Notes under the pieces: generated by a model | What the model saw: the letters and a program-made list of their open reading frames with translations, nothing else | The model's database searches: none | What the model was told of the DNA's origin: nothing | Shown here: positions 2,935 through 60,361 of the stretch, piece by piece | Position numbering within the stretch: position 1 is the stretch's first letter | Layout: each line of letters begins with the position of its first letter | Position numbers and translations under genes: made by a program | Source of the DNA: Patiria pectinifera | Lineage: Eukaryota; Echinodermata; Asteroidea; Valvatida; Asterinidae | Assembly: GCA_029964075.1 (NCBI GenBank) | Contig: CM057135.1 | Location: 31,919,366-31,983,365 of the forward strand | Length of the DNA stretch: 64,000 nucleotides | Reading direction: 5' to 3'

Positions 2935-3400
2935 TTTCTAAATTCTACTCCTCTTAGCCCAGGCCTATGAACATGATGAAAACTATTTGACATCCCCTTT
3001 TTGTTAATTTTATTGAAAAGTGCAGTTCTTTAAACGTTAAAAAAAGTCCATACTTTTCCGGACGCGGTCACTTTTGCTGTGATGTCATTTCAGGAAGACG
3101 TGTTCAGTTTAGAGATTTCTGTTCAAATTTTCCCAATGAAACCATTTGTGAGAAAGTTTTGCTCATTGGCGTATGGCCATGTACTTACACAACAACAAAT
3201 CACCAAAGAACAGACAATTTATGACGGCAAAATATCCAAAACCTTTTGTGCTAAATAGCTGTAACATTGTAGGTTTCTGCCCAAAATTGCATCACAGTTT
3301 TGCTCATGAATATGGAAATTAGAATTAGCATAAAAAACAAAAAGGCACTAAAACCCCCTTCAAAATGGTAAAACGAAAATTGAAACAAAGTTGAATGAGA
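2935..3400 (+). repeat. Dispersed repeat, copy 1 (inverted partner at 8660-9125)
   Basis: This approximately 460-base segment aligns with the reverse complement of 8660-9125. Shared landmarks in order are a CATCCC(C)TTTTT stretch, CATACTTTTCC, a TCATTTCAGGAAGAC block, ATTTCTGTTCAAATT, an ACAACAACRAA block, a GACGG(C/T)AAAATATCC block, and a final CATGAATATGGAAATT with GCATAAAAA. No coding capacity or clear terminal motif was found, so the element class is unknown. Confidence 0.65.
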
Positions 3401-3413
3401 CAAAAAAAAATTC

Positions 3414-6400
3414 CATTTTCAAGGATAGCATTTAAAATTACATTGCATGCCCCTTTAAACTTAGGCAACAGTTTTACTTACATTCCCCTTATTTTGTGTT
3501 ATAGTGTTAGACTGCTACTACTTTTACTAGCTAGTGCCAAAATTGAAGTCAAGGGCCATGGGCCTACATTTGCTGTTAGCTTTCATTTGCATTGCCAGGC
3601 ATTAATTGCACAATACAAATTCCATCCTTGTAAACTAAGTTTCATCCCATTGAGTATCTAAAGCCAGCTCTTGGGCCTTCCTCAAATTAAGTTGTAAAGG
3701 AAAGAAAAGTTATTTTAAAATATATGGATTTTTTCTTATGTAAACATGTAAAAACACCCCTAATTTTGTGCCTGTGTTACACTGTTTCCATCCATGGGCC
3801 TCCATTTTTAAAACTGTCATTTGCATTGCAAAGCATTAACAATACAGATTCCTCTCAGTGATTTTATGGAACTCTTTAGGCCTTTGCACTGTGTAGAGTA
3901 TCAAAAGCAACTCTGTAGCCCTCTTCAAGTAATTTGCATATGAATAAGTCTGGCGCGTGCGATGACTGTAATTGTGTTGGCACGTGCGAACAAACTAGTA
4001 GGCGTGGCTACATGCGCATTAATCCCAGAAAGTTTTTGAAGTTATGCCAAGACTTTGGAGTGTGGCCACAGGTGGCCATGTGATGTTTATATGCTGGCCT
4101 AGGAAATATGTTTTTCCTGGGTGGAAAGTAATTGACATAAAACAAAACCTCCAACATGTTGTGAAAATAATCAGTTGGTCAACAAATACAGGGAACTACT
4201 CAACATTTATTGTGATGTCTATAAATTTATTATTAGTGTGTACATTTATACTGTTTGGCTATTAATTAACAGTTCTAAAAAGGTTAAATCAACTGTTACT
4301 TTGGGTCGATTCTATACTTTAAATTCTCTACAGTACTTAGAATAGCAACAGGTAGAGAATTCCTGTGGAAATTATAATTTTATGTAGGATTTTCGATTGC
4401 TGCCTTTGAAATTATAGCTTGTAAAAATGACATCTGATGGCATCAGTACTTTTACAGCAGTTACTTCAAATAACTAACAGACATATATAAATTAATCCTA
4501 GGTACTTGTAGATAATGGCATTAAGATTCCGATACAGATAATTAGCGGTAGGATAGGCAGGACAGTCAGCGAAACTCGGGAAACTAAGAAAAAATGTTGT
4601 GAAATAACTGAAAGCAAAGTGACAATGTCTTCTGCATAGTCACTTCACTTCTTGCTTAAAAGTTCTTGGTAGTCAGTGGACTTGTGAGGCCCATGTTTTT
4701 TTAGTACACTATTTGAAACTCTTAGGATCAATTATGAATACCTCAACAAGTTCAATATCACTTGATACCATTTTTTTCTGACCATTGTTATGAGCAGGGA
4801 CATGTGAAAGTACCCTTTAGTTTGCGTTCGTGTTACACTGCTTCCATCCATGGGCCTCCATTTTGTTTGTCAAAAGTTGTCATTTGCCTTGCTAAGCATT
4901 CCTCAGTGATTGTATTGAACTGTAAACCAGTTTAGGCCTTTGTACTTTCTACTGATGGCATCAGTACTTTTACAGCAGTTACTTCAGATTACTAACCAAA
5001 ACACAGAAACTAATCCTAGATGTATAAATTGTCATTAAAATTCAAATTAGCGGTATGACATTAGGCAGGACAGTCAGGGAAACTCGAGGAACCAAGAAAA
5101 AAAAATGTTGTGAAATTAGTGGACAATACTGAAAGCAAAAATCGGTGACAATGACTCCTGCATTGTCACTTCACTTCGTGCTTAAAAGATTCTTCTTGGT
5201 AGTCAGTGGACTTGTGAGTCCCATGTTTTTTAGAACAATATTTGAAACTCTTAGGATAATTAATGGATACCTCAAAAAGTTCAATATCACTTTATACCAT
5301 TTTTTCCTGACCTTTGTTATGAGCAGGGACATGTTAACATTAAAAAGTGGGGGGCCTTCGCCCGCAAAACTGATTAAAAAAACCACTTATTTTTGTATTT
5401 GGACAGCTTACCCAAATGCTACATCATGTATAAATATTTCTAGAATTGTGCCTCTGTTGGAGGTGGGGCAACATTTTATATAAGTGGGGGAGGGCAAATG
5501 ATGTTAAACAAAAAAATTCTAGCAGTAACAGGCAATCTTGAAAATGCGTTTTCAAGGATAGCATTACAAAAATTACATTGCATAACCCTTTCAACTTAGG
5601 CAGCAGTTTTACTTATATTTCCCTTATTTTGGGTTAGTGTTAGACTGCTACATGTACTACTTTTACTAGCTAGTGCTGAGATTGAAGTCAATTGTGCCAT
5701 TAGTCTAGTATTAGCTGACATTTGCATTGCCAGGCATTAATTGCACAATACAAATTATACCATTGAGTATCTAAAGCCGTCCTCAAATTAAGTTGTAAAG
5801 GAAAAGAAAAATTATTTTATATAAAAAAAAATCTTATCTAAACATGTGAAAACACCCCTTATTTTGTGTTTGTGTTACACTGTTTCCATCCATGGGCCTC
5901 CATTTTTTTGTCAAAAGTTGTCATTTGCCTTGCTAAGCATTCACAAATTCCTCAGTGATTTTATTGAAGTGTAAACCAGTTTAGGCCTTTTGACTGCATG
6001 TGTAGAGTAGCAAAAGCAACTCTGGTGCCCTCTTCAAGTTAATTTGCATATGAATAAGTCTGGCGCGTGCGATGACTGTAATTGTGTTGGCACGTGCGAA
6101 CATACTTGTAGGCGTGGCTTCAGGCACATATTAATCCCAGAAAGTTTTTGAAGTTATGCCAAGACTTTGGAATGTGGCCACAGGTGGCCAGGTGATGTAT
6201 GTATGCTGGCCTAGGAAATTAATTTGTCCAGGGTGAAAAAATAATTGACATAAAACCAAACCCCAAGCATGTTGTGAAATAATCAGTTGATCAACGAAGA
6301 CAGAGAACTACTTAACATTTATTGTGATGTTTATACATTTATTATGAATTAGTATGTACATTATTTTGTTTGGCTATTAATTTACAGTTCTAAAATTTTA

Positions 6401-7110
6401 AAGCAACTGTTACTTTGGGTTGATTCTATACTTTCAATTTGTCACAGTACTTAGAAAAGCAAAAGGTAGAGAATTACTGTAGAAATTGTAATTTTATGTA
6501 AGATTTCCGATTGCTGCCTTTGAAATTATAGATTATGAAACCAAAATACAGAAATTATAGGTGTAGAAAATGGCATTAAAATTCAAATACATGTACATGT
6601 ACAGATAATTAGCGGTATGACATTAGGCAGGACAGTCAGGGAAACTAAGAAAAAATGTTGTGAAATTAGTGGACAATACTGAAAGCAAAAATCGGTGACA
6701 ATGACTCCTGCATTGTCACTTCACTTCGTGCTTAAAAGAACCTTCTTGGTAGTCAGTGGACTTGTGAGGCCCATGTTTTTTAGTACAATATTTGAAACCC
6801 TTAGGATCACTAATGGATACCTCAAAAAGTTCAATTTCACTTTATACCATATTTTCTGATCCTGTTATGGGCAGGGACATGCCGATATTAAAAGTGTGTG
6901 TGTGGGGGCTTCGACTGCAAAAAAACCCCCTGATTCCAATAATTTACTTTTTTTTTTATTTGTTCAGCTTAGCCAAGTGCTACATCACGAATATTTCCAG
7001 AATTGTGCCTCTGTTGGGGGTGGGGCCACATTTTATATAATTTTATATAAGTGGGAGGGCAATGATATTAACAGAAAATCTAGCAGTAACAGGCAATGTT
7101 GGTGCTTTTT
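3414..7110 (+). repeat. Nested tandem duplication of about 1.6-2.1 kb
   Basis: The order of landmarks starting at about 3414 repeats from about 5545: AAGGATAGCATT, the CATCCATGGGCCTCC block, AATAAGTCTGGCGCGTGCG, the GGCCACAGGTGGCCA block, ACTGTTACTTTGGGT, GGACAGTCAG and TTGGTAGTCAGTGGACTTG. Inside the first unit, 4560-4960 is partly repeated again at 5040-5340. Copies differ by substitutions and small indels. No long open frame is shared, so this is a non-coding duplication of unknown origin. Confidence 0.7.
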
Positions 7111-9125: not shown

Positions 9126-9798
9126 GATGTGTTCCTCAGGAAAAGTAATCTCATGGAACCTGAAGGGATCCTCTCAATGTAGGAGTCGTCTTGTAGTATT
9201 CACCCTCAATTATCAAAAATATGTAAATTCATTGTAAATCAAATTATATAATGACTAATTTGTGACAACGCCGTCATCATTGTCAACTGTCCTTTTCTAA
9301 AATAAGTATACAGGTGTAAGAACTGCATGGTGCCTTTTTTGTTTAAGCTCATTAAATGTACTGACTCTTCTTCGTTTTTGGTTGAAAATTACAAACCACA
9401 AGACTGCTGCCCTCTGTTGACGAAGTAGAACGTAAGGTGAATTTCAAGTGCGTTCAACAAGAACAAGACAAGTTCTGATTATTAAAGCTATCCATACTTG
9501 AAATAAGTGGTACAGCCTAAGCTGGCTTGAATAACAAGATATTAAGAGATAGATCTATGTGGAAGGGATCCACTTTAAACTAAACTACAACAGTGTCTGG
9601 CACACTGTTGCATGCATGGAGAGAAAAACCCAACTAATAACACAAGAATCATCCATTATAATTGTATAAAATGATGTCATAATAAGACTATAGTTTTCAC
9701 TCTTCTGGTCAGGTTTCCTCTTGCAGAATGAAGTGCGTCTCTTGTCAATCCTGATTCTGAACTGTTTTCTTCTCTCTATATTTGTGACATTATTATAG

Positions 9799-10035
9799 AA
9801 AACTGAGCCTGTCATACCTGGGCGAGAGTGGTCAGATGAAGAGGCTTCTGGTTGAGGCCATTGCTGCTAGGAGGAGGACGCCGGGAGGAGCAGGGAGGAG
9901 AACCTACGGAGCTAGGAACTGTGGACTCTGCTTGCTGAGCTTGCCAGGAATTCCTACAAACTTCGGACACGATTCTTTATGGAGAGAAACCCCCGCTGAA
10001 TAATTGGGCAAGAAACTTCATTATTATTAATTAAA
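9799..10035 (+). other. Exon-like module M1 (terminal type)
   Basis: A 3' splice-like site (TATTATAG, ending 9798) precedes a module related to M4 and M11. It has AAAACTGAGCC at the start and GGAGGAG-rich middle. It has no donor; instead it continues through CCAGGAATTCCTACAAACTT like M11. The AATAAA seen in M11 is altered here to AATTAAA. All frames contain stops. Best read as a 3'-terminal, probably non-coding exon. Confidence 0.4.
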
Positions 10036-10191
10036 AAGTTATTTTAAGAAATGAAATGAACTATAGTGGCATGCGTCTGGATCAAGGTCAGACGCCTTGA
10101 GCATTGCCAGAGAAAAGGCTTTATGCCTTATATAATTTACTATCGAACTGTCAGTGATACTCGAACGGCAACGAACGAACTGCAACGAACA

Positions 10192-10645
10192 GACGAACTG
10201 CAACGAACATTAGTCACACTACTTGGAATATCATCCAGCAGCCTTACAATAACGTTTATCATAAGTCAATAATTAACAAAACGTAAAATGACTTATTCCA
10301 TGAGGAATGCAAAGAAGAACTGAGAGATCACAGCGTCTTAATTCAGTGAAGACGAACTGCAATGAACATTATACTACTTGGAATATGATCCAACAGCCTT
10401 ATAATAAGGTTGATCATAAGTCAATAGTTAACAAAACAGGACTACTTATATGACTTATTCCATGAGGAATGCAAAGAAGAACTGAGATATCACAGCGTCT
10501 CAATTCAGTGAAGACGAACTGCAGTGAACATTAGTCACACTACTTGGACTATTATACAAAAGCCTTATAATTAGAAAACGACTACATGTGTGACTTATTA
10601 TTCCACGAGGAATACAAAGAAGAACTGAGATGTCACAGCGTCTGG
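10192..10645 (+). repeat. Three tandem copies of a ~160-base unit
   Basis: Units start at GACGAACTGCA near 10192, 10351 and 10513. Each contains ACTACTTGGA, AGCCTTA(C/T)AAT, CATAAGTCAAT (first two), ATTCCA(T/C)GAGGAAT and AAGAAGAACTGAGA. Block B holds only one diverged counterpart (about 17060-17225), so the unit was amplified after the A/B duplication or reduced in B. Confidence 0.75.
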
Positions 10646-10949
10646 GGCGCTGTCCTTATACACATTTAAAGATATAATATATATTATATAACCTTCCAAA
10701 GCAAACAAGAGTAAAAACTATGAGTCATTAATACGGGCATTGGCTGATATTTTGTTTCTATAAATATAAAGAAAGAAACAGATACCATCCTGCCCGATAA
10801 TCAACATGAAGTTCATTAGAGAGTCCAACTATAATTTGTGACCTGAAGAAAAAGAGGTTGCTCTTTGAAAAGGTGATGATTGGAAGTAAGGAAGAAAAAA
10901 ACCAATCATCACTTTATAGCCCAGAGTAATGACTTTGTTTCTGAATTGC

Positions 10950-11145
10950 TCCCTGTGTATGATGTGATTTTCCCTGTGTACGGTGTGATTATTTCTTGTG
11001 TACGGTGTGATTATTTCTTGTGTTCGGTGTGATTATTCCTTGTGTGCCGTGTGATTATTTATTGTCTGAGTGTGATTATTTCTGCGTATGGTGTGATTAT
11101 TTCTGTGTACGGTGTGATTATTTCTTGTGTCGTGTGTTTTCTTCT
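10950..11145 (+). repeat. Minisatellite, ~22-base TGTGATTATTTCTTGTG unit
   Basis: Eight or so degenerate copies of a 20-24 base unit with core GTGTGATTATTTCTTGTGT. The same minisatellite, shorter, occurs in block B at about 17540-17640. Confidence 0.75.
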
Positions 11146-11224
11146 AGTGATTTTTTGATATAGGCCTACCCCAACGAAAATAGCGCAAAATCAAAACTGT
11201 AGAGAAAGAAATAATACTCTCAAA

Positions 11225-12200
11225 GGTACAATACGCGAGGGTACGATACGATACGGTACGATACGACGCGATACCGGTGGTGAGAAATATAATATAAGTA
11301 TTATTTTTCTTACCCATAAAAAAAAATGTGGAGAACAAAATAATTGGCCCTACTTGAAAATCAGTGTTATTTATTTCTCAAAGGTACAATACGCGAGGGT
11401 ACGATACGACACAATATGATACGATACGATACGATACGATACGATACGATACGATACGATACGACGCGATACCGGTGGTGAGAAACATAATAAAAAATGT
11501 TGAGAATCAAAAATACTTGAAAATATTTTTCTCACCCAAAAAAAAAATGTGGAGAACGACGAACGCGAGGGTACGATACGATACGGTACGATACGACGCG
11601 ATACCGGTGGTAAGAAACATATAAGTATTATTTTTCTTACCCATAAAAAATTGTGGAGAACGAAATAATAGGCCCTACTTGAAAATCAGTGTTATTTATT
11701 TCTCAAAGGTACAATACGCGAGGGTACGATACGACACGATATGATACGACACGATACGATACGATACGATACGATACGATACGATACGATACGACGCGAT
11801 ACCGGTGGTGAGAAACATAATAAAAAATGTTGAGAATCAAAAATACTTGAAAATCAGTGTTATTTATTTCTCAAAGGTACAATACGCGAGGGTACGATAC
11901 GACGCGATACGATACGATGCGGTACGATACGACACGATACGATACGATGCGGTACGATACGACACGATACGATACGATACGATACGACACGATACCGGTG
12001 GTGAGAAACATATATATTTGGAAAAAGTGTTATTTTTCTCACCCACACAAAAAAATGTAGCGAAAGAAATAATACTTGAAAATCGGTGTTATTTATTTCT
12101 CAAAGGTGAGAGATGACACGCCACGCCACGATACGACACGTTGCGAAATGACACGATACGACACGATGCGATACGACACGATAGCGGTGATGAAAAACAA
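11225..12200 (+). repeat. Higher-order CGATA pentanucleotide array
   Basis: Runs of the pentamer CGATA (read TACGATACGATAC) are embedded in a larger repeating frame. Each large unit begins with TATTTCTCAAAGGTACAATACGC-like sequence, runs through a pentamer block of variable length, and closes with GATACCGGTGGTGAGAAAC before a spacer of AT-rich sequence. About six large units occur here. The long open frames on both strands are by-products of a stop-poor pentamer and are not called as genes. Confidence 0.85.
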
Positions 12201-12749
12201 AATATTTGCAAAAAGCGTTATTTTTTCACCCACTAAAAGTAACAAAATACTAAATGAAAAAAAATACATGAAGAAACGACTTTAAATGATTTACGATATG
12301 AAACGAAATGATACGATACAAGAAAATTTCGAATTTTTCTTTCCTCGAACTCGGCCAAAAAAAAATCGGCCTGAAAAAAATCCTTCTCTGTACCTTCTCG
12401 CAAAAATAATGGCCACGAAAATAACCGATTGCAGCTTGCAACTCAAGAGAAAAAACAGAAATTTTCAATCAGTAAGATTTTTACTGCACAAATTGTAAAA
12501 CGAAAAAGAAAAAAGTAAAGACGAAAAAGAAAATCGGCTACGAATTTATTTTATTGGGAAAAAGCGGTAGTGACAAGAAAAACCAATGCCATGCCACAGG
12601 TTTATCGTCAAGCCATCTCTCCTCGCGAATTGTTTCTTCGTCGAAATGTTCAACTTGCTTCCTCCATTCTTGATCTGCATCTAAAGACATGTCATGTGTC
12701 GACTTTACAACATTTAATTCAGCTGTGTCTTGTAATTTTTAATTGAATA

Positions 12750-13115
12750 GTAAGTCCGATCTATAAATGCATCGGCAGGGATTCATGTGGCTTATCGTCA
12801 CCTTCTTAAGTTTTTTTTCCAACCGTGTCTTGATTTTTTTCCAGTAAGTCCGACGTTCAACGATCGGCAGTAACACTTCTGATATTTGTCTCCTTCCAAA
12901 TGTTTAATTTTGTTGATAGGTACTGTGGCACTGTGCCGCCTCCAAAAGTAACTTTCAGCCCCATTTTGAATGAGAAAAACATTGTAAGTCCGATCTTCAA
13001 CGATCGGCAGGGAAATACTTGTGGCATTATATCGCCTTAATTGTCTTCGTTTGAGAGTAAGTCCAGTCTGCGACGATTGGCAAAACGATTTAGACATATT
13101 GTCTTCAGTATTCAT
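12750..13115 (+). repeat. GTAAGT-hairpin repeat units, block A
   Basis: Four irregularly spaced units begin at 12750, 12844, 12984 and 13057. The first three carry GTAAGTCCGA, then a short inverted repeat (for example CCGATC-TTCAAC-GATCGG), then GGCAG. Two are followed by a (C)TTGTGGCATTAT or CATGTGGCTTAT stretch. Each unit therefore couples a 5' splice-site consensus to a hairpin. Read on the minus strand the same units give a repeated peptide resembling SLPIVEDRTY. Which strand, if either, matters is unknown. Confidence 0.6.
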
Positions 13116-13329
13116 ACATGACTATGTACATGTATTGAGAGCATTAATGGATTTATCAAAGTGAGCACCATCGATTTGCAGCTTTTTTTCCCTGTCTTTT
13201 TCCCCCTCATAATAACTATGACTATTTTGTTGGCCGGGTTTAAAATAAGTACTGGGAGTCTTTTCTAACCATCTGTGGAGATACGGTGTGACCTAGCTAG
13301 GCTGGGTCGAGTTTTCTTTCTTTCTGTAG

Positions 13330-13497
13330 CTCATTCAGCCGAGAATATGAACATCTACAAGCCTAACACTGACTGGATGAGGAGAGGCTGCTTTTTCAGG
13401 ATGGAAACGAATCCCCCCAGGATCCGGAAGCAGGGAGGAGGACCGACGGATGAACGGATGACTCTGCTTGCAGGGCTACCCATTTCTGATTTCTAAG
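13330..13497 (+). other. Exon-like module M2
   Basis: The acceptor is CTTTCTGTAG (ends 13329) and the donor TTCTAAG|GTAAGT. One frame is open across the module and stops (TAA) just before the donor. Its second half (RKQGGGPTDERM) matches the same frame of M4 (RKQEGGPTDERM). The matching lead-in in block B precedes M12. Confidence 0.45.
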
Positions 13498-13595
13498 GTA
13501 AGTTTAAAAAGAACTTCCTCTCATTAATGAGTGCATCTGTCATCAATTCTTTTTCTTAAGCCTTCTTTCCCTTTTGTTTTTGATTTTCTTAATAG

Positions 13596-13769
13596 AGGAT
13601 GGAAACTAGAATACCTGGATGAAAATGGATAGATGAAGAAGCTTCTGGTTGAGGATGACCTTCCCTCCCCACCCCACTTCAGCTGGAACTCAGGAGCCGG
13701 AAGCAGGGAGGAGGACCAACAGATGAACGGATGACCTGCTTGTCGGGCTTCCCATTACTTATTTTAAAA
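13596..13769 (+). other. Exon-like module M3
   Basis: Borders are TTCTTAATAG| and TTTAAAA|GTAAGT. Nucleotide sequence is very close to M4, including GAAGAAGCTTCTGGTTGAGGATGACC-type core and CCGGAAGCAGGGAGGAGGACC. However, a TAG replaces a TGG codon of M4 and one base is missing in the central C-rich stretch, so no frame stays open. Confidence 0.45.
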
Positions 13770-13921
13770 GTAAGTTTCAAACAGGAAAACAGACGAATGG
13801 TAATCTGTCATAAAAAGACGATTTTTTACTAGTCTGGTGAAGTTACCGCTCACAGGATGAATTACATATCCCGTCAATCCTGATTCTGAAATGTTTTCCT
13901 TTCTCTTTGGTTTGATCTTAG

Positions 13922-14095
13922 AAAATGGAGCCTGGCATACATGGATGAGAGTGGCTGGATGAAGAAGCTTCTGGTTGAGGATGACCTTGCCCTTCCCACC
14001 CCACTTAAGCTGGAACTAAGGAGCCGGAAGCAGGAAGGAGGACCAACAGATGAACGGATGACCTGCTTGTCGGGCTTCCCATTTCTGAGTTTGAA
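13922..14095 (+). other. Exon-like module M4, fully open frame
   Basis: The acceptor is TTTGATCTTAG| and the donor GTTTGAA|GTAAGT. The module is 174 bases, exactly 58 codons. One frame (entering with one leftover base and leaving with two) is open throughout, so it could be inserted or skipped without changing frame. The encoded peptide contains YMDESGWMKKLLVEDD and RKQEGGPTDERM and resembles no family known to me. It may be the least decayed copy of an ancestral coding exon, or open by chance. Confidence 0.45.
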
Positions 14096-14256
14096 GTAAG
14101 TTTAAAAAAAGGAAAGCAAATGAACGATCATAATAACTGTCATAAAAAGACTAGTTTTCACTCGTCTGGTCAAGTTCCCCCTCAGAAGGAATTGACATGT
14201 CTCGTCAATCCTGATCCTGAAATGTTTTCTTTTCCCTGTTTTTGATCTTTAAATAG

Positions 14257-14422
14257 AAAATGGAGCCTGGATGATAGTGGCTAGATGAAGATGCTTTTGG
14301 TTGAGGATGTCCTTTCCCTCCTCATCCCACTTCAGCTGGATCTAAGGAGCCGGAAGCAGGGAGGAGGACCAATAGATGACTGTTGACTCTGCTTATTGAA
14401 CTTGCCGTTTGAGATTTGTGAG
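14257..14422 (+). other. Exon-like module M5
   Basis: Borders are CTTTAAATAG| and TTGTGAG|GTAGAT. It is similar to M4 but shortened near its start (GAGCCTGGATGATAGTGG) and has stops in all frames. The weaker donor suggests decay. Confidence 0.4.
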
Positions 14423-14685
14423 GTAGATTTACTAAACCAAAATTAGAGGTCACACATTGATGTAAAAAGGAGAGCAATGCCTGGAGCATTACCTTCACAG
14501 CTACAATCCTGCATGAAACAAAGTGCAAGAGTTTTTAAAGGACTCTTCTAATGGATAAGGAAGCACAACTTACACAAGAAAATATCAAAATAAATGAAAG
14601 TCTCTTTTACTTTGTTGCCAGCCAAATAGGAATTGTTAGTAATGTGACCTAGTTTGCCTAGGCCGAGAAGTTTTTTATTTTACAG

Positions 14686-14808
14686 GATGGAGATTGTCAT
14701 AGGAAACATCTCAAGCCATTACTTCAGGAGAATGAAAGATGTCTGGCAACCGGAAGCAGGGATGACTGATGAGCCTACTTGCTCAACATGACATCTTTGA
14801 CACATGAG
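14686..14808 (+). other. Exon-like module M6
   Basis: Borders are TTTATTTTACAG| and CACATGAG|GTAAGT. It keeps only the ACCGGAAGCAGGGA core of the family. The upstream intron contains GTGACCTAG(C/T)TTGCCTAGG-like sequence related to the lead-in of M2 and M12. Confidence 0.4.
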
Positions 14809-14939
14809 GTAAGTGTAAACCCCCCCCCCCCAACAAAAAATGAAGGTTGAATTTTGAATCTTGAACAGTTCGACAGTGTGACAAACATGTTAAAATTGTT
14901 AATTTAATACTGTGCTTTTGGTCTTTATACTTTTTGCAG

Positions 14940-15060
14940 ATTCGCCAAGATGTTAGCCATCAACGACATAGGAAGATGGATTGCTGGCTACCGCTGCCAC
15001 GCCCCCACTTACTAGAACAAGAAATTAATTAAAACCACCAACCCACCCCTTACCAGAACA
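14940..15060 (+). other. Exon-like module M7, no donor seen
   Basis: A good acceptor (polypyrimidine ACTTTTTGCAG, ending 14939) opens a segment with CCAAGATGTTAGCC and CACGCCCCCACTTACTAG. No donor follows, so it may be an alternative terminal exon. The right end given is arbitrary. Confidence 0.3.
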
Positions 15061-15690
15061 AATAATTGATAGAAATTCACTGCAACAAATGAAATTAGAA
15101 TATAATCTCTGACTTTGGACTAAGTAAAATGTTGTAAGGCTATGGGACACCCCCGTCATGCGTAGTTATATCAGCCTGCCTCATGCACTAACAAAACGGT
15201 GCTCACTTTAAAATTCAAACCTTTGAGAATTTTTTTCAGTCAGAAATCATCAAGACATGGAAATTACACTGTGCTTATGTTGTTGCTTTTGTTTGTTCGC
15301 ATGATTTCACTGTTCCATTTTGGCATGTGTTGTTCCTGCACGTTTTATCATATCGCACCTTTTTGTTTTTTAGAAGCAAAAGGATAACCACAGTGTATGG
15401 CCAAAGTCTGACAATTATTACATTAAAAAGCTCTAACATATTCAGCTAAATTTGAAACTAATCATTTAAAATTTTAAATGAAATGAACAGCATTTCATTG
15501 CATAGTGTATTTTTTTATTTATCTATTTTGTTTAATATTTTTTTTGGGGGGGGGGTCGTCCCCTAGCCTTTGCCTTCCTTTCGAACCTAATTCTTTGATG
15601 TCACCAAAAACATCGATGTAAAAAAATCTGCCAAAAACAGAACCCTGTTGGTCTATCATTTTCCTTAACTTTCTATTGTCCATCCTAAAT
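15061..15690. other. Spacer between modules M7 and M8
   Basis: AT-rich sequence with a TTTTTTTTGGGGGGGGGG tract near 15537-15555. Nothing gene-like was recognised; a 62-codon open frame at 15199-15387 has no support. Confidence 0.4.
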
Positions 15691-15836
15691 CAAACGAGGA
15701 TGACAACGGATACCTCTGAGGAAGAGGCCATTGGTTGAGGACCTTGCACTCCCCGTCCCAGGAGCCAGAAGCAGGAAGGAGGACCAACAGATGAACTGAT
15801 GATTCTGCGATGAGCTAGCCATTTCTAATTCTCAAG
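15691..15836 (+). other. Exon-like module M8 (left border unclear)
   Basis: It carries GAAGAGGCCATTGGTTGAGGACC, then GCAGGAAGGAGGACCAACAG, then a donor CTCAAG|GTAAGT. The acceptor region has lost its family-typical TTTAATAG. Probably a decayed copy. Confidence 0.35.
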
Positions 15837-15997
15837 GTAAGTTCCCTCTATAAGAAGAGAAAAGAAAAAGAAGATGATGCCACAAATGAAAAGGCTAGTT
15901 TGTTATCTCCTTTGCATCTTAATTGCCTTGCAAGAAGTGCAAATTATCTTGAAATTAAACAAAACTTTGTTTTTCTATTTTTTTCTATCATGTTTAG

Positions 15998-16154
15998 AAC
16001 CGTGGATGGGTCTTGGATTGATGGAGACATGGAGATGCCGAACTTGAAGACACACCAAACCACCATCACAGATGTACCTTAAGAACCGGAAGAAGGAAGG
16101 AGGACCGATGGATGAACTGAAGACTTGCTGAGCTAGCCATTTCTGATTTTCAAG
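15998..16154 (+). other. Exon-like module M9
   Basis: Borders are ATCATGTTTAG| and TTTTCAAG|GTGAGT. The first half is open and ends TITDVP-stop; the second half carries the family core ACCGGAAGAAGGAAGGAGGACC. M10 has the same arrangement (IITDD-stop), so M9 and M10 form a subfamily. Confidence 0.4.
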
Positions 16155-16344
16155 GTGAGTTTCCTCCAAAAGGAAATGAAAGAAAAAGAAAATGGTACCA
16201 TAAAGTAAAAACAACAAGTAACTCATCTTGTGGCATTTTGCTGCTTTATTGCCTTGCAAGATAATGTCCCGAGTGCAGATTTTCTTTGGGTATTATATCA
16301 AACTGTCTTGGTCTTTTGTTCTCCAAATAATTTATTCTGTTTAG

Positions 16345-16502
16345 AAACCTGGCTGAGTATTGATGAAGATCTGGCAAGTCTGTTTGTTGACTTGACGCCT
16401 GAAACCATCATCACGGATGACTGAGGAACCGGAAGCAGGGAGGAAGAACGACAGAAGAGCGGAAGACCCTGCTTGCTGGGCTCTCCATTTCCGATTTTTA
16501 AA
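16345..16502 (+). other. Exon-like module M10
   Basis: Borders are TTCTGTTTAG| and TTTTTAAA|GTGAGT. The open first half (ending TIITDD-stop) is followed by the family core GGAACCGGAAGCAGGGAGG. Its position relative to the core matches M9. Confidence 0.4.
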
Positions 16503-16666
16503 GTGAGTTGAAAAAGCGCTACAAATAGATAATAGAATAATGTCATAATTATCAAGACTAATTTTTACTCTTCTGGTCAGGTTTCCTCTTGTAGAATGAA
16601 GTGCGTCTCTTGCAAATTCCGATTCTGAACTGTTTTCTTCTCTCTTTGTTTTTGACATTTTAATAG

Positions 16667-16940
16667 AAAATGGAGCCTGTCATACCTGGATGAGAGTGGT
16701 CAGATGAAGGGGCTTCTGTGTTTACGGCTGACTTTGCCCTCCTCACCCCACTTCTGCTGACACTAAGGAGGAGGAAACAGGGAGGAGAACCAACAGAATG
16801 ACTGTGGACTGTACTTGCTGAGCTTGCCAGGAATTCCTACAAACTTAGAATTGGGACAGTGTCTGACACACTTCATTATGGAGAGAAAACCCCATCGAAG
16901 AATTGGGCAGGAAACTTCATTATTACTTAATAAAACGATA
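16667..16940 (+). other. Exon-like module M11 (terminal type)
   Basis: The acceptor is ACATTTTAATAG| (ends 16666). The module starts AAAATGGAGCCTG like M4, lacks a donor, and runs to an intact AATAAA at 16929-16934. It looks like the 3'-terminal exon of the module transcript, with M1 as its block-A paralogue. Its longest frame is closed about two-fifths of the way in. Confidence 0.45.
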
Positions 16941-18369
16941 TTCTAAGAGATGAAATGAACCTCAGTGGCATGTGTCTAGAACAAAGTCAGACGACGCCTG
17001 GAACATTGTCAGGACGAAAAAGCTATGCCTTATATATTTACTATTGAACCGTCAGTGACATTCCAGCAATTCAAAAAAGACGAGCTGCATCGGTCACACT
17101 ACTCGGAATATTATCATGCATTAGGTTTATCATAATTATAAAGTAAATGAGACACAAAGCTACAGATAAAACTTGTAATTCCAGGAGGAAGACGAGGAAA
17201 AACTGAGATGTAACAGTGCCTGGTGCGCTGTAAATTGATATTTGTTTTCATAAAGTTTTCCAAAGCAAACACGATTTACAACAAAAACTGAGCAATCAAA
17301 ACGGACATTGTCTGATACCTTGTATGACCATTGAGGAAGTAACGGATTCCATCCTGTCCAATAAACTCGCCCCCCCCCCCAAAAAAATATACAATATCGG
17401 TTTCTTATAACTGTCTGTAAACCAAATAAAGTGAAGTTACTCTGTGAAAAAGTGGTGATTGAAAGTCAAAAGAAAACAAAAGAATCTTCAATCGTCACTT
17501 CCAATCATCATTTTACGCCCCGATTCGCATGCCCTCTGTACTGTGTACTGTGTGATTATTTCTTGTGTACAGTGTGATTATTGCATGTGTTCGGAGTGAT
17601 TATTTCTTGTGTACGGTGTGATTATTTGATGTGTTGTGTACTTTCTTCCAGTAATTTTTGAAAATTCGTGTTTCTGACTATTTTACAGATCTGCAATACT
17701 CTGACAAAACCAAACAAAGTCAAAGTTTTATTGAAAGAAATAAAGTCAGTGTTATTATGTATTTCTCAAAATTTAAGGTGCCATACGATACTATACGACA
17801 CGATACGATAGCGGTAGTGTGAGGGAAAAAGTATTTAAAAAAGCAATACTTTACTCACTCAAAAACGAATGAAATTAAATGATATACGATACAATACGAA
17901 GTGATACAAATAATTTCGATTCTTCCTTGAAAATTTCGGCCACAAAAATGATTAAATGACGCGTGTGAAATAAATAATACTTGAAATTTTATAATCGACA
18001 AAAGAAAGAAATATAAACGCAACAAAAATAAATATTGAGATTAAACAAAGCGGAGGTGAAAAAAAATTGAAAAACGGGTATTTTTTTCTCATCCCTCCAA
18101 AAGGGAGAGAAAGAAATTATACTTGAAAATCGGTGTTATTTATTTCTCATAGGTGCGATACGACACTTTACGATACTACAAAATACGATACATACAACAC
18201 GATGCGGTACGCCACTACACGATACGTTACGATACGTTACGATACGATAATAGCGGTGGTTAGAAAAATGCTATTAAAAAGTGTTATTTTTCTCAGCTCC
18301 CACTAAAATAGTTACGAAATGATAGTAAATAAAAAACGAAATGATTTACGATACGATTCGAAATGATAC

Positions 18370-18792
18370 GGGGAAGGGGGGAGGGGCGGGGGTAAATCCC
18401 CCCCAATATTTTGTAAAGACTGCCCTTTTCCATTCAAATACCCTTTTTTCAACGGGCTTACCCCCCCCCAATAATTTTTAAAGAGTGCCCTTTTTTAACG
18501 AAGTGCCCTTTTCAAAAAAGAAGTGGTGCCCTTTTTTGTGGCATCTGCCGTTTTGGGTGCCTTTTTCAGAATTTCGCACATGTATCGCCCTGAAAAGCAC
18601 CATATATTGGCCCTTTGTGTGCATAATTGTCGGTTTTGAACAGCGCCCCCATCGACAGATCCCCCCCCCCCCCTGCTTTTTGATTTTACGGAGGCCAAGT
18701 GTCCGGAGAAAATTTCTACGTTTCACAACGGATGTACAAGTGCCCTTTTCAAAAAAAATTGCCCCCCCCCAATAAAAATGACCGTGCTACGC
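18370..18792. mobile_element. Insertion-like segment in block B with C/G homopolymers
   Basis: Relative to block A, B carries about 420 extra bases between GAAATGATACG and GCAAGCCATCTC. The segment has repeated GTGCCCTTTT motifs, three long C-runs and a right end CGTGCTACGCCCCTG. The class is not known; absence from block A supports a later insertion. Confidence 0.4.
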
Positions 18793-18940
18793 CCCTGCAA
18801 GCCATCTCGATGCTCGCGATTTTTTTCTTCGTCGAAATGTTCAGCTTTCTTCTTCCAGTCTTGATCTGCATCTCGGGACATGTCACTGTCACCTTCACAA
18901 GATTTAATTTCAGCTGTGTCTTGTACTTTTTAATTGAATA

Positions 18941-19245
18941 GTAAGTCCGATCTATAAATGCATCGGCAGGGATTCATGTGGCTTAACGTCACCTTTATGT
19001 CACCTTTTTTCCAGCCGTGTCTTGATTTTTTTCCAGTAAGTCCGACGTTCAACAATCGGCAGTAACACTTCTGATATTTGTCTCCTTCAGAATGTTTAAT
19101 TTTGTTGATAGGTACTGTGGCACCATGCCGTCTCCAAAAGTAACTTTTAGCCCCATTTTGAATTAAAAAAAAAAACGATCGGCAGGGAAGCACTTGTGGC
19201 ATTATGTCGCCTTAGTTGTCTTCCGGATTTAGAGTGAGTCCAGTC
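18941..19245 (+). repeat. GTAAGT-hairpin repeat units, block B
   Basis: Counterparts of the block A units start at 18941, 19036 and 19234. The third A unit is represented only by its right half (CGATCGGCAGGGAAG) because a poly-A stretch replaces the GTAAGTCC part. In the last unit GTAAGT is GTGAGT, still a valid donor consensus. Confidence 0.55.
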
Positions 19246-19511
19246 TGCAACGAGTAGCAAGCCGCGTTCGACATTATTGCCTTCAAAAGTCATACATGTA
19301 TGTACATGTATTTGTAGCTTGATGGATTTATCAAAGTAGGCCTGATCGTTAGGCCTTAGCAGCTTTTTGACACAAGTGTTTCTTTCTTTTTTTCTCAAAA
19401 TAACTATTTGGTTGGCCGGGATTAAAATAAGTAGGCTGAGTCTTTTCTAACCATCTTTGGAGATACGGTGTGACCTAGCTAGGCTGGGTCGAGTGTTCTT
19501 TCTCCCCGTAG

Positions 19512-19670
19512 CTTACTCAGCCAAGAGAATATGAACTGACTGGATCCACTAGAGGCTACTTTGAAGGAAGGAAAAGAATCCCTCCGAGAAACCGAGGGCA
19601 GTGAGGACAGGCGGATGAACTGGCGACCGTTCTTGGCAGGCAAGCCATTTTTTACAGGTTGGTCAGAGGT
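19512..19670 (+). other. Exon-like module M12
   Basis: The acceptor CTCCCCGTAG| follows the same GGTGTGACCTAGCTAGG lead-in as M2. The module begins CTTACTCAGCC (M2: CTCATTCAGCC) and has a weak possible donor at ACAG|GTTGGT. The right border is uncertain. Confidence 0.35.
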
Positions 19671-19829: not shown

Positions 19830-19926
19830 CTCGCATGCACGGAGCGCATCATCGCAACTCGAATTGTTGGCACTTGAGGGCGCTACCGCTTATGTACGAT
19901 ACCGTCGTCGGCTTGTTGTTTCTAAG
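19830..19926 (+). other. Candidate 5' UTR exon of DNAAF6
   Basis: A GC-richer stretch ends at TTTCTAAG|GTAATC (exon end 19926). The DNAAF6 start codon lies in an exon with an acceptor at 21335, so an upstream non-coding exon is required and this is the nearest plausible one. The left border is unknown. Confidence 0.35.
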
Positions 19927-20130
19927 GTAATCAAATCTTGCATTTAATATTTTTGCAATTTTGGATTCGTTTCTGAAACCTGTTCGGGTCCTTTATGATA
20001 TGAATGTGATAATGCGATGCGTTTACGAATTTCGGAGTGTGTGAAGTTTAGGACCTGTTCCATGTTCTATAGTTAGGGAGTGAAAACCACTTTTAACTTT
20101 TTGTCGGACTTGCGGCCTAGTGACATGAGT

Positions 20131-20629
20131 GACTAGCGCCATAAATGTGACCAATTTACTGGACTAGCCTAGGCATACCGCTGTAAATAAAGGCCACACT
20201 TGGAACATGTACCCGAAAATGTAGAACTTTGTCAAGCTTTTATTTTCACATTTAGACTTTGTTTGTAGTTTATTTACGCTTTAGAGGCACACTCCCCTCT
20301 TTAAACTTAAAGCGATAGAAAATTAGTGCCCCCTTTAATCAGATATCTATATTTTGCGTATTTTCCGGGTTCATTTGTGCACGTTTGCTTCTCTAAATTC
20401 CAACACAAAATTACACGATAACTAGATGTCTGAAAAAGGGGGGACTAAGTTTCTATTGCTATAAAGAGGGTGAGTATCCTTCTAACTAAAGCGTAAATAA
20501 ACTTCAAATAAATTCTAAATGTGAAAATCCAAATTTGACAAAGTTTACATATTCGGGTACATGGTCAAAGTGTGGCCTTTATTTACGGAGGTAGTCCAGT
20601 AAATTGGCCACATTTATGGGGCTAGCTCA
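20131..20629. mobile_element. Long foldback element (about 200-base arms)
   Basis: The left arm (from GACTAGCGCCATAAATGTG at 20131) is the approximate reverse complement of the right arm ending GGGGCTAGCTC. Shared inner landmarks are AATTTACTGGACTA, TAAATAAAGGCCACACTT, CATGTACCCGAA, TTTATTTACGCTTTAG and a CCCCC(T)TTT stretch. The arms flank a spacer of about 80 bases. No coding sequence is present. It lies in the presumed first intron of DNAAF6. Confidence 0.7.
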
Positions 20630-21355
20630 GCACCTACTGCCAACGCAGCACCTTGCCAACTTGGCACCTGCCAACTCGGAACCTGTACAAGAACCCTCCA
20701 TGAAGTCGGCAACAATCTGATTGTGCACCCCGCCAACTCGGATTCTCTGGTGTGGTATCAAGTATCACAGCGTTCTTCGGCAGTACAGTTAGGCCATGAG
20801 AATGAAAGTCTTAGCGTCCACCGCCCGCACCTTCCTGCGAGAACCACACGAACATTTCAATATTTTGCAAAACTTCCATTTTATTTCAAAAAATACTATT
20901 TTCAATTACAAGAGACACCCCAAAACATAATTTAGTCTAAAAATTCCTACTAAGGCATATTTCCATGTACATATACTATGGGTGTTTGGTGTGCATGTTT
21001 GATGCCATGCTAGAGACTTAGGCCAGCACACCCCAATTTCGTGATCCCGATCTGCATAGCGCAGTACAGTACACATCCTCTGTATGTACATGCTGTGTGC
21101 TGGTGTCATATTAAAAACGAACTCCTGTGAAAATCGGACACATTTTCCCTTTTATTGATTAATCCCTCACACGTGACCAGTCATTCTAATTGTGTGCCAC
21201 GTTAGCGGATGCTACTATTCTAGGATCCTATTTATTTAGACTAGTAAAACAAAAGCAGCCAGACAGCTTCAATAAAAGCCTATTGTTATTTTGTAATGGC
21301 CAAATGTTGCATGTTTTACTTTTTCCCCACAACAGTTCCCTGAATTGCCCTCAAG

Positions 21356-24300
21356 ATGGACCTGCCTGGTGGAGGAATCACAGCACTTGCACAACTCCTC
21401 AAACCTCCCGACCAAGAAAGTGGTGAAGAGGATGACAAGGTGGCTCAAGTATTATGGCTCAGAAGCCGTTTCACGGATACCGTCATTTTTAACTCATTTT
21501 TTCGGGGCATTACAATGAAAATACGTCCCATCATGCAACTGTAGCAGAGCATGATGGGACATCTTTTCATCGTAATTCCCCCACCCCAATTTTAAAGATG
21601 GTGCTATCCACGAAACGGCTTAATGCAAATATGTTCTCAGTTGGCTTATTCACCCATTTACACCTGCATTACACTGTACTGCATTGTATTACTTTGAATT
21701 GCACTGTGTTTATTTCCTGTGTATGTCTTTTGGAAAAAAATAGAACTGGGGCTGTTTAACCAGTTCGCGCCAGGATTATTTTTGCCAAAAATGTACAAGA
21801 TATATATAGCAGCCAACTTTTGATTACAGCCAAACACCACAAATGCTGATTTGCAAGAGTCATTTCAGCAGAATTTGTAAGATATTTCATACCGCAACCT
21901 CACATCTTTCAACACTCCGAGTTGTGCCCATGGAGCATGAATGCCATTACAAATGGAAAAATACTGTCAAATAAAGTCTGATGTGGTTTAGAATTTCCAT
22001 GTTGTTTTTAAAAATGCCAGTTGCATAGCATGACCACAATTGTGTGTGTGTACAAAACTAATAGGGGATTAGCATGTTAAGACATCATCCCGGAGATGGT
22101 GGCACTCTCGACGTTTTAACCCGTCTGACGTGAACTGGTTAAGACATTGGTTAGGGACCAATGGGTTAAGTTGAATGGGTGTGTATGTAACTTCAGATGG
22201 GTGTGTAGGTCACATTATTATTTTTAGAAGTGGAAGAATTAGACTGCCGGCTGCTTGTACCAATCGCCATCTTCACTCTTTTGTCCCAATGGGAGTTAAA
22301 TTCTTCAATGCCATTTTTAAAAGATGAATTTTGTTTTTGATGACTAGACAGTGGGTGACAGGTACAGGCTTCTCCTTTACATGCAGTGTTTTTATCTGGC
22401 ATCTGTAAAGTTTAACTAATGTATTTTGTATTCAGTGTTCTTCCCTTTTTATAAGCTTTGTGAGCATTGTAATTTCTTCATCTGGAGATTAATAAAGTTT
22501 TCTTATGTCTTCTGTCTTATGCTGTAGTTATGCCCGGATACGTTCCCAAAGTTGCCTGTATTTTTATGATAAACAGGTGCCACCTGATGAAGTCTGCCTT
22601 CATTTCCCATGATATGCTTAGGTTTGCTGACAGTTTTCTGTCTTTGCAACTTCCTTTTAGCCAGTGACTGGTTCAGCCAAACTCGGCCCAGGAGCAATAG
22701 GCCCATCTGCCAAGAGTCAAGCCGCACCAAAACGTAAGAAAACAAAAGAATTTATTTTAAGAATGGTGTTTCCAAAATTAATAAAATATGGATTTATTTA
22801 TTTGTTTTCTTTGAAGTATTGTAACGTTTCTGTTTTATATATTGTAGACCAAGACACTTCGAAAAAGGAGAGCAAAGACATCTGGGATGCTGAGGAGGTT
22901 CCCGAGGGAGCAGAGTTTGATGACACTGATGACCCAAGACCTCAACCAGAGTAAGTGAACACCCACTCCCTCACCCTATCTCCCTACCCACAACGTGCCT
23001 CCCACTGCCTTGTTTTTTTAATGGCCGATTAAGCCTGGAAATCAAGCATGACCTTCACAAGGACATTGGAATAATGAGGGTTTGCTGCTCAAAATGCATA
23101 TTTTAGTACTATGAAGGGGCGTGCCTCCTGTGAAATGCAGACACACAACTTTGACCGAGACAAAGTGTCTATGTTAATAAGGTTGAATTTACATTGGGGT
23201 GATGTAAATTCAATATTGGGTTTGCCCTTCACCGACGTATTTAAAAAAAACAACACTGTATACTCGGTGTTTTCTTGAGTGATTGTGAGAAAAAAATCAC
23301 TCGTGTGGGACTCAAACCCACGACCTCCTGCTTACTAGTGCCGACGTCTTAGCACTCGACCACCGAGCTTGCTGGGACCAGCTGGCTGGTTCAAATCTGA
23401 ATTATGAATAGTTTGGCTTTGGTAGCCGCTGCTATATCAGGTTCGAACCAGGCAATTGACCCTGGCAAGCGTGGTGGTCAAGTGGTAAGACGTCTGCAGT
23501 AGTAAGCAGGAGGTCATTGGTCTGAGACCAACCTGAGTGATTTTTTTCTCACCAACACTCAGGAAAACACTGAGTATATGGTGTTTATAAAAATGTTTTA
23601 AAAATACTATATTTTGATGTTGTCTTCCAGATATGATATTATCTTCAAGCAAGCAGTGACAACAGAAGACATGTTTCTGCAGATGAGCAACAAGACACCG
23701 AGCTCAGTCAGCTGTGAAGACATGGTGGTGAGTCTTGAATATATCCTGCTCCAGATTTGTAAACAAGTCACCACAAGCAGCAATGGATTCAAAGGGGGGA
23801 GCAACTTGCCCCCCTATTGTTCACTTTTTAAACTTTATTTTAATTTTGTTTTAGGAGGTACATGTTGTTTTTCCCCTTTTCTTATGCTGCCAACTGGCTA
23901 TTTAATCACTTAAAGACAGAAATTCACATGTGCAAATATATGCCTTGCTTGGTTGTTTGTGTTTTGCTTCCATTTATTTCCGTAAATGTTGGATCCGCAC
24001 TGAAGAGTCAATCAGAAGTCATGAGGATACATCACGTCATCCACAAGTGGTCACATGTCATTATGCCTAGGGAGTTCAGACTATCATAATTTCATTAAAA
24101 AAATTAAGTTGTTAATTCACGGAAGATTTTGTTTCATGAAACTTTGTTATTTGTCATTGGTTGCATCATACAGATAAAGATAAGTTTGCCAGACACAAAG
24201 ATGGCTGATGTCGACCTGGATCTCAAAGACAAGTTTCTCAGCTGCAGAACACCAAACTAGTGAGTCATTCAAACTTCAAAAGCTCCCAAACTGTTGAATT

Positions 24301-59427: not shown

Positions 59428-60361
59428 GGCAAGCCAACCAGTCTCTCAATCTTAATGTTCAAATTGACACTGCTTTGGCAGGGAATCCGTTTGATCAGAT
59501 CGAAGAGTTCGCTGTATGATGAACATGTAATGATCGAAATTGCACCGACCAAAATTGCACGGCGCACCGATAGCCAATCAGTAGTGTCGTCTCGTCAATT
59601 ATTCAACAAAATACTGCAGAGTTTCTGAAAATATTGTGGAATCACCGTTCAATATTGTATCATCATTCATGGCCATAGGCGCAGCACCTGTTGCACTGAT
59701 GGTATTAATAGAAACAACAATAATTGCTTTGTGTGCTACACAAAAATTGGATCATTACTTTAGCGATGGTTATTATAAATTATTGTATTGTTGCTGGTAT
59801 TGCATTAACAGCATATGTCGCAAGTGCTTTGAATCTAAATTCGTACGTAGACATATTATAATGGCCTCCTCTATCTTCGTGTTTTTGTAATACAACCAAA
59901 GGTCATATAAAGCTCTTACATATTACATCCATATGTAAGAAAAAGATATGCAATGGAAAGTGTGAGAAAATGATGAAAATATGAATCAAAGTATGAATCG
60001 ATGTATGCAGTTACTTATTTTTGACTATTGGGTATGGAAAACACGAATGCTCTATCTGTTGAACCTGTGTGTATTTACATGTGCTAAATATTTACAGGAA
60101 AACTATCTTGGGTACTTTGTACGCATCACTGTATTGACTTCTTCGTCGCCATATGGTGTCTGATTGGTAAACAGTATCCGAGTACCTGCTTTAGCAAAAG
60201 AGTAAACGCGTTGATATAATTCACTGCTGTGAAAACTGCTCTCGTTAAATTTTACCTGCCAGTTTTTGGCAGAGTTCAAGAGAGGGCGCTTCATCCGGAA
60301 ATACTTTATTTTGAATGAAGTAAGGCCGGCGTTTCCCATCCTCTGTGTTTATAGAGGATCC
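59428..60361. other. Spacer between ZIP and ASIC-like genes
   Basis: It contains the ZIP 5' UTR or promoter on the left (near 59428-59600) and the 3' UTR of the ASIC-like gene on the right. A short plus-strand frame at 59636-59890 is unsupported. No conserved feature was recognised. Confidence 0.4.

Follow-up and report, generated by a model that had tools for sequence, protein, structure and literature searches.

Among noncoding genes organized around a repeat, the closest described system is the mammalian long noncoding RNA (lncRNA) Firre, in which the local repeat RRD overlaps 7 of the 13 human exons and 11 of the 23 mouse exons while other local repeats are mostly intronic, according to the parts of the source that treat its repeats (PMC4820808). 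In the same parts, RRD is described as exonic, as binding hnRNPU and as keeping the RNA nuclear (PMC4820808). Here, we analyzed a stretch of 64,000 nucleotides (nt) from the sea star Patiria pectinifera (C7:31919366-31983365 of the 613.5-Mb assembly; the whole stretch is hereafter termed the window), which carries 11 related exon-sized modules at 9799-19657, all on the + strand. This locus is probably one member of a dispersed family of transcribed, spliced, multi-exon noncoding RNA genes, and we infer the transcription, splicing and function of the family from sequence comparisons.

The original prediction for this DNA proposed about eleven exon-sized modules with splice borders, including two terminal types without a donor, one of which carries AATAAA, and these counts agreed well with ours. 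Exon borders were placed by eye and by script. A profile built from the same 11 modules yielded 11 matches in the 64 kb, all on the + strand at 9809-19658, and the next matches were noise (E of 5.7 and 7.2); being a search on its own training modules, this rules out further modules in the window and is not an independent discovery. Both terminal modules were recognized, T2 with AATAAA and T1 with ATTAAA (Table 1). In the putative unit, exon-like segments about 120-210 nt long are arrayed behind acceptor-like sites, and most of the segments share a 75-85-nt 3' module (GGAACCGGAAGCAGGGAGGAGGACCGAC...GATGACCTGCTTG...) that ends at a predicted 5' splice site. In the window, the exons are 123-174 nt long with a best shared part of about 84 nt, and the introns are 98-263 nt long except the X6-E7 gap of about 640 nt. 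The pattern of splice sites and conservation fits a repeat that would coincide with the exons of a spliced transcript. The repeat recurs discontinuously within one locus, with 11 modules in 9.9 kb, and falls in the size range of about 100-750 bp applied to Firre-type repeats.

All of the 12 exon starts (those of the 11 modules and X6) were placed by eye after AG, so that the AG itself reflects the placement; the preceding tracts are 55-80% pyrimidine, that of E7 being the weakest. At the shared 3' end, GT was found in 8 of the 8 internal modules (GTAAGT in five, GTGAGT in two and GTAGAT in one, i.e., GTRAGT in seven). GTRAGT lies 56-71 nt downstream of the core in seven of the nine core matches, against a chance of 1.3% per 20-nt slot at the density of the window itself, and the two core matches lacking it are E4 (GTAGAT) and the terminal T2. 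The eight donor modules align with 25 invariant columns among the 87 ungapped ones, and finding GT in two of them is therefore unremarkable by itself (chance of 0.083). The case for splice borders rests on the position and quality of the donors, together with the dispersed copies described below, and not on the invariance of GT.

From 5' to 3', the locus comprises T1 and a spacer; an upstream block, E1-E5, X6, E7-E9 and T2; a spacer; and an upstream block followed by E1B. Blocks A (9666-16531) and B (16532-19650) are tandem copies. Judged by this layout, the locus is a single complete putative unit (E1 to T2, 13330-~16950) between two partial copies, T1 being the 3' end of the upstream copy and E1B the 5' end of the downstream copy. 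The span had been predicted to be a single transcription unit, which was not supported: the complete unit is accompanied by the ends of two further copies, and the unit recurs in a family that numbers at least 68 loci; neither the tandem duplication of A and B nor the genome-wide dispersal of the unit had been foreseen. A and B are 80-98% identical across most of the upstream block as far as the E1 acceptor, with a single 60-bp piece (13160-13219) at 60%, suggesting that the upstream block is either constrained or else converted.

We searched the genome with a 21-nt core of the module and obtained 388 matches at no more than two mismatches, while the reversed pattern used as the control gave 0. 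Among the exact matches listed, 100 places fell into 50 loci on 17 contigs when merged within 10 kb; 24 of these loci had more than one match, and the spacing of neighbours within the listed loci was 1500 bp or less in 42 of 50 cases (median of 396). With a 94-nt module query, the best 40 of 401 first-look candidates were scored and the 41 matches listed formed 20 groups, 18 of which were counted as new (8 on C21, 2 on C22 and 8 on C19); the other two, from C1 and C19, were part of loci already listed and were left out. Altogether, the family comprises at least 68 loci. Twenty loci of 10 kb, most of which were picked for several core matches, all carry modules (138 in total, with 34 clusters of at least two), and two loci with a single exact match, L001 and L006, hold four and three modules, respectively. 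The 138 profile matches were narrowed to 109 with the core and then to 88 with a donor-like site, which reads GTTAGT in 48, GTAAGT in 13, GTTTGT in nine, GTGAGT in eight and otherwise in 10 across all loci. In ten further one-match places, which contain the core by selection, a loose GTNNNT pattern was found at the module end in nine and GAG/GTAATG in the tenth; nine of the ten share, by eye on the alignment, a common exon layout with a TCTGGCAG-like acceptor.

The loci fall into recognizable groups. L015-L017, all on C7, match the window locus over most of its length, including the spacers and the upstream block. The second group (L009-L012, L022 and L025-L028) has arrays at a spacing of about 400 bp with a recognizable first and last module, as well as a further terminal exon-like segment (by eye, L012:4936), and L018-L021 and L023-L024 are related to this group. 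The third type, L013 and L014, has an upstream architecture common to contigs C3 and C6. A AAATCGGTGTTATT-like spacer element (at no more than two mismatches) occurs in 18 of the 20 loci, on the strand of the array save for one match in L011, and six times in the window, every time within the locus; at the same threshold it was not found in L013, L014 or four flank pieces (L029-L032). Beside the exon array of L024, a tandem repeat was observed at 2108-2713 in which several long open frames (AGRSRRQVSQ-like repeats) overlap one another and occupy both strands.

The main rival explanation holds that the family is a repeat that spread as a non-autonomous mobile element or by segmental duplication; it would carry tandem modules internally, with splice-like borders inherited from a founder gene and now unused in most copies. 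The copies occur in both orientations across many contigs and in regional clusters of mixed orientation, related loci share 86-97% similarity across stretches of up to about 10 kb that take in non-exonic DNA, and no protein function is apparent, all of which fit this explanation. On the other hand, the module and the AG are kept above the introns in dispersed copies. In nine subfamily-3 copies from nine contigs (out of 10, L037 being of another subfamily and left out), the identity of the module was 0.900, with the 21-nt core used for selection excluded, and those of the exon 5' part and the two introns were 0.810, 0.712 and 0.775, respectively. The module exceeded the introns in 36 of 36 pairs and the AG was retained in 72 of 72 cases, while the donor hexamer stood at 0.824 because its later bases vary. 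Likewise, the numbers of module pairs in the window that were alike (z of 4 or more) were 26 of 28 for the exon 3' halves (last 84 nt), 10 for the exon 5' halves, 5 for the downstream introns and 4 for the upstream introns. Of the hallmarks of transposable elements, neither terminal repeats nor a transposition protein was found in the examined loci (unit ends and target-site duplications were not part of the search). Inverted repeats of 14 nt or longer were absent from L013:2500-5400, and the ten in L014:3000-6300 were mainly A/T-rich and absent from L013; the two longest frames in each of six loci resembled no transposition protein by eye (no family search was made); and the shared ends differ between locus pairs. 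We regard a mobile repeat as unlikely, albeit deserving real weight. The original prediction had named dispersal without exon behaviour as the sign of a plain interspersed repeat: the wide dispersal was found, and the lack of exon behaviour was not.

The array is also depleted in CpG. The observed/expected ratio (o/e) is 0.41 in the unit vs 0.92, 1.39 and 0.89 in the surroundings, with observed/expected counts of 55/133 in 13330-16666 and 3/14 in T2, and of 28/30 and 27/30 in the upstream blocks and 58/41 in the downstream spacer, where the excess is helped by CGATA arrays. The median o/e of 34 arrays was 0.49 vs 1.12 in 64 flanks (p of 7e-9 if independent; the flank stretches can overlap neighbouring arrays). 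The depletion recurs in three related loci, and the arrays mostly lie between CpG-richer spacers. In the part of the crown-of-thorns methylome report that deals with genomic features, methylation amounts to 48-50% in introns, 44-45% in exons, 11.5-12% in intergenic regions, about 5% in promoters and 11.8% in intergenic repeats (PMC12550476). Since methylation in this sea star lies in gene bodies as far as that part goes, the CpG depletion of the array is the trace that a transcribed, methylated gene body would leave. A methylated mobile repeat should be depleted throughout, whereas the depletion here lies in the array inside otherwise CpG-richer duplicated units.

No conserved coding frame was detected, and the frame is not kept across exons. 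The absence of a consistent frame had been predicted and stood overall, but E3 (57 codons) and T1 (67 codons) are open throughout one frame, an openness within chance as shuffles matched it in 55 of 500 and 52 of 500 cases, respectively. These two open exons would suit another rival explanation, in which the loci are a decayed or fast-evolving family of repeat-protein genes and every exon originally encoded a repeat unit of some 57 residues. Two further observations lean the same way: one frame is open in 72 of the 88 module segments vs 2 and 1 for the other frames, which reflects the shared consensus, and the substitutions at the three codon positions (37, 42 and 50) show a slight excess at the third in the open frame. 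The synonymous fraction in that frame, 0.36 vs 0.29 expected, is in excess no larger than in the other frames (0.32 vs 0.26 and 0.25 vs 0.20), and many third positions are invariant; the codon count covered the 41 modules of modal length (30 distinct) out of 88. The lengths of the 88 leave 1, 0 and 2 modulo 3 in 43, 26 and 19 cases, and the dispersed copies carry single-base and other odd indels. All of the 20 exons from L010, L012 and L028, with borders from a simple picker that probably misplaced some acceptors, contain stops in all frames, and all three phases occur among their lengths. Two protein searches gave no match at E up to 1 (proteins of up to about 218 aa were searched). With no shared frame along the exons, no codon signature and no homologue in that search, a protein family was rejected and the decayed repeat-protein option of the original prediction loses ground; we hold it to be quite improbable. 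The exon-like modules, their tandem duplication and a noncoding product, all parts of the same prediction, are by contrast supported as far as splice borders, conservation of exons above introns, CpG depletion and frame-breaking indels can indicate.

We then considered the module as an RNA. A helix of AAGCAGG and CCTGCTT is compatible with 29-37 of the 39 thinned modules, depending on the position, and no convincing covariation was found among these 39 of the 117 distinct modules. The single folds of 10 modules were not clearly below shuffles (z of -1.97 to 1.49), and the consensus folds were weak: one energy was reached by 3 of 200 column shuffles, yet it came from two pairs with a covariation term of -0.08. 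As no fold of the module is supported, sequence rather than shape seems to be kept. To our knowledge, piRNAs do not require kept splice sites, and this counts against the idea that the loci form a piRNA-producing cluster, in which the arrays are transcribed and their value lies in similarity to other copies. The family is indeed multi-copy and noncoding, and mouse Y repeat noncoding RNAs are linked to piRNAs in the portion of the source concerned (PMC8428117); even so, we see very little chance that this idea is correct. Just as improbable to us is a small-RNA host gene, in which the exons are by-products and the introns carry small nucleolar RNAs (snoRNAs) as in the SNORD116 loci. Its familiar layout of short noncoding exons and short introns is seen here, but intronic snoRNAs were rejected on a simple box-and-stem scan that gave no C/D candidate in 10 introns (H/ACA was assessed by box counts alone), and no Rfam match reached the gathering score in the locus, where only a bacterial sRNA appeared (E of 0.13) at E up to 1. 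Furthermore, the introns evolve faster than the exons, the opposite of the SNORD116 hosts as characterized in the relevant part of the source (PMC2248623).

How such a family of noncoding genes might work can be outlined as follows. The CpG-richer upstream block would serve as the promoter, the array would be transcribed and, being a gene body, methylated, its modules would be spliced in tandem, and transcription would end at the terminal exon with AATAAA or ATTAAA. The best-conserved stretch of the module is purine-rich (GGAAGCAGGGAGGAGGAC) and, in most copies, begins some 70-75 nt 5' of the donor; motifs of the purine-rich GGAGGA type are established splicing enhancers. In the most likely mechanism, the module would act first as an exonic splicing enhancer at a fixed distance 5' of the donor, each duplicated module would be recognized at once as an exon, and a module bearing both enhancer and donor would be spliced wherever it landed behind a usable acceptor. 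Tandem growth within loci would follow because the module bundles the enhancer with the donor. By analogy with RRD in Firre, the repeated exon could then be a protein-binding domain in the mature noncoding RNA. We tentatively suggest that the portable exon, an RNA module with its own enhancer and donor, may be the unit of selection in a large dispersed family of sea-star noncoding genes. If so, it would multiply within loci and across chromosomes, and the resulting set of multi-domain noncoding RNAs would be comparable with a family of repeat-domain proteins.

Several observations weigh against a family of spliced noncoding genes as proposed here. In three related loci, the differences per site, with CpG sites excluded, were 0.018 (23/1301) in the module, 0.025 in the exon 5' part, 0.027 in the intron, 0.032 upstream and 0.043 (90/2117) downstream; the low value of the module against the downstream flank and the splice positions, with 0 differences in 135, speak for constraint, but the module was not distinguished from the intron (p of 0.087) or from the exon 5' part (p of 0.21), in a comparison whose three pairs share sequences and two of whose five exon starts are 1-2 bases off. 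Several recent pairs in the window gave no contrast between exon and intron (p of 0.58 for E3-E4, 0.52 for E8-E9, 0.21 for T1-T2, 0.14 for E3-T2 and 0.08 for E4-T2); E2-E3 and E2-E4 do show it, yet their upstream introns barely align. Where E1 begins, A/B identity falls from 0.90 to 0.52, and it stays at 47-65% by 60-bp piece from the acceptor onward, so E1B appears unconstrained and free to change. Among the 109 module cores, 21 lacked a donor-like site in the scanned range, a pyrimidine-tract filter passed the acceptor at only 3 of the ten one-match places, and the simple border picker returned no acceptor for the four modules of L013. The CpG contrast is small in subfamily 3 (0.77 in L013 and 0.63 in L014 inside, 0.62-0.88 outside), and the T1 boundary is not sharp, for the o/e is alike before T1 (0.57), in T1 (0.52) and after it (0.58 in 10240-10950 without the TACGA arrays). 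TpG/CpA is not raised (1.13 in the array vs 1.13 and 1.08 in the upstream blocks), which weakens the gene-body reading of the CpG depletion without undoing it. Finally, the enhancer role draws on general knowledge of such motifs, and the lack of a supported fold belongs on the same side.

Table 1. Features of the module locus, in positions of the window.
Feature	Position	Strand	Remarks
T1, terminal-type module, upstream partial copy	9799..10050	+	ATTAAA at 10030, without donor
Spacer, copy A	10191..12315	.	162-bp and 22-bp tandem repeats, CpG-rich TACGA arrays, AAATCGGTGTTATT-like elements at 11358, 11683, 11851, 12080
Upstream block, complete unit	12620..13329	+	CpG o/e 0.92 (12560-13329); candidate promoter or first-exon region
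Four GTAAGTCC-hairpin-like units	12750..13083	+	starts 12750, 12844, 12984, 13057
E1, first module of complete unit	13330..13497	+	donor GTAAGT
E2	13596..13769	+	donor GTAAGT
E3	13922..14095	+	donor GTAAGT; one frame open, 57 codons
E4	14257..14422	+	donor GTAGAT (weakest)
E5, shortened module	14686..14808	+	donor GTAAGT
X6, exon-like segment without module, 3' of TTTTTGCAG	14940..15050	+	ATTAAA at 15028; possible alternative terminal exon
E7	15699..15836	+	donor GTAAGT; weakest acceptor
E8	15998..16154	+	donor GTGAGT
E9	16345..16502	+	donor GTGAGT
T2, terminal module, complete unit	16667..16950	+	AATAAA at 16929, without donor
Spacer, copy B	16951..18370	.	CpG o/e 1.39 (CGATA arrays raise the value); AAATCGGTGTTATT-like elements at 17743, 18127
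Upstream block, copy B	18798..19511	+	GTAAGTCC-type units at 18941, 19036, 19234 (third truncated)
E1B, diverged first module, downstream partial copy	19512..19657	+	47-65% identity to E1; weak donor GTTGGT

Within the best-conserved part of the duplication sit GTAAGTCCGAYNTTCAACGATCGGCAG units, each followed by a second short hairpin (by eye), with four in copy A (12750-13083) and three recognizable in copy B (18941-19260); these units may act as donors of a first exon, as an RNA element or as a site for protein binding. Just 5' of the E1 acceptor, a 9-bp stem (TGACCTAGC TAG GCTGGGTCG) lies at 13289-13309, is identical in copy B and is echoed before E5 (by eye).

On the upstream side of the locus, the segment 1501-2860 is CpG-rich (o/e of 1.16) with an exon-like end CTCGAG/GTGAGT near 2855, beyond which CpG is depleted for 4 kb; it is likely the promoter and first exon of another transcript, which might run to T1. 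Direct repeats about 2.1 kb apart, 78-80% alike and with a ATTTGCAT octamer and GGCGCGTGCGATGAC, were found at 3408-7101, where CpG is depleted (o/e of 0.35 in 3001-7100). Downstream, the start of a coding gene was recognized on the + strand at 19850-24000 (exons at about 21357, 22661, 22849 and 23631), and copy B stops roughly 250 bp short of the likely first exon of this gene (by eye). The gene looks like DNAAF6/PIH1D3; a piece spliced by hand had no match in Pfam or PDB. Long imperfect palindromes at 20133-20625, 21463-21621 and 23252-23585, with 74-77% identity to their own reverse complements, are probably foldback elements. Farther away are a tRNA-like Rfam match at 44651-44723 (32.7 bits, gathering 29; not called by ARAGORN), perhaps a tRNA-derived repeat; a direct repeat of about 1.3 kb at 49028-51595 (79% alike); a run of 500 N at 52461-52960; and a ZIP transporter gene on the minus strand at 58393-59445, the product of which is 99% identical to a Patiria miniata protein and 81% to that of Acanthaster planci, as would be expected of a bat star or a very close relative.

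In the open-access literature on Patiria lncRNA, echinoderm lncRNA exons, Patiria genome repeats and repeated or multicopy noncoding exons, with subscription papers and preprints outside the scope, no such family was found. Because most spliced noncoding RNAs come from single loci that change fast, it is hard to tell which of their parts matter. With module copies in the hundreds and of graded similarity, a single genome here offers the comparison that is missing for single lncRNAs, and the family could show which exonic bases are kept, whether splicing itself is under selection and whether RNA domains can undergo amplification as protein domains do. P. miniata is a laboratory embryo model, and the prediction of a spliced family is therefore directly testable.

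Of the known systems, the mouse Y repeat noncoding RNAs are reportedly spliced. As far as the consulted part of their description extends, they are likewise multicopy and noncoding (PMC8428117), and the star copies instead lie on many contigs. The SNORD116 host has many noncoding exons in one long transcript, as is predicted for the star locus, but in the part of the source on its conservation the intronic snoRNAs are conserved and the exons are not (PMC2248623), whereas here the exons are better kept and no snoRNA was found in the 10 introns. Like Firre as portrayed in the parts cited above, the star locus appears noncoding and multi-exon with one local repeat across many exons, a likeness known here from sequence. 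In contrast to Firre, which is a single locus with repeats nearly confined to it, the star module has 388 core matches and occurs at no fewer than 68 loci; thus, we describe the star family as one that may work like Firre and do not class it as a member.

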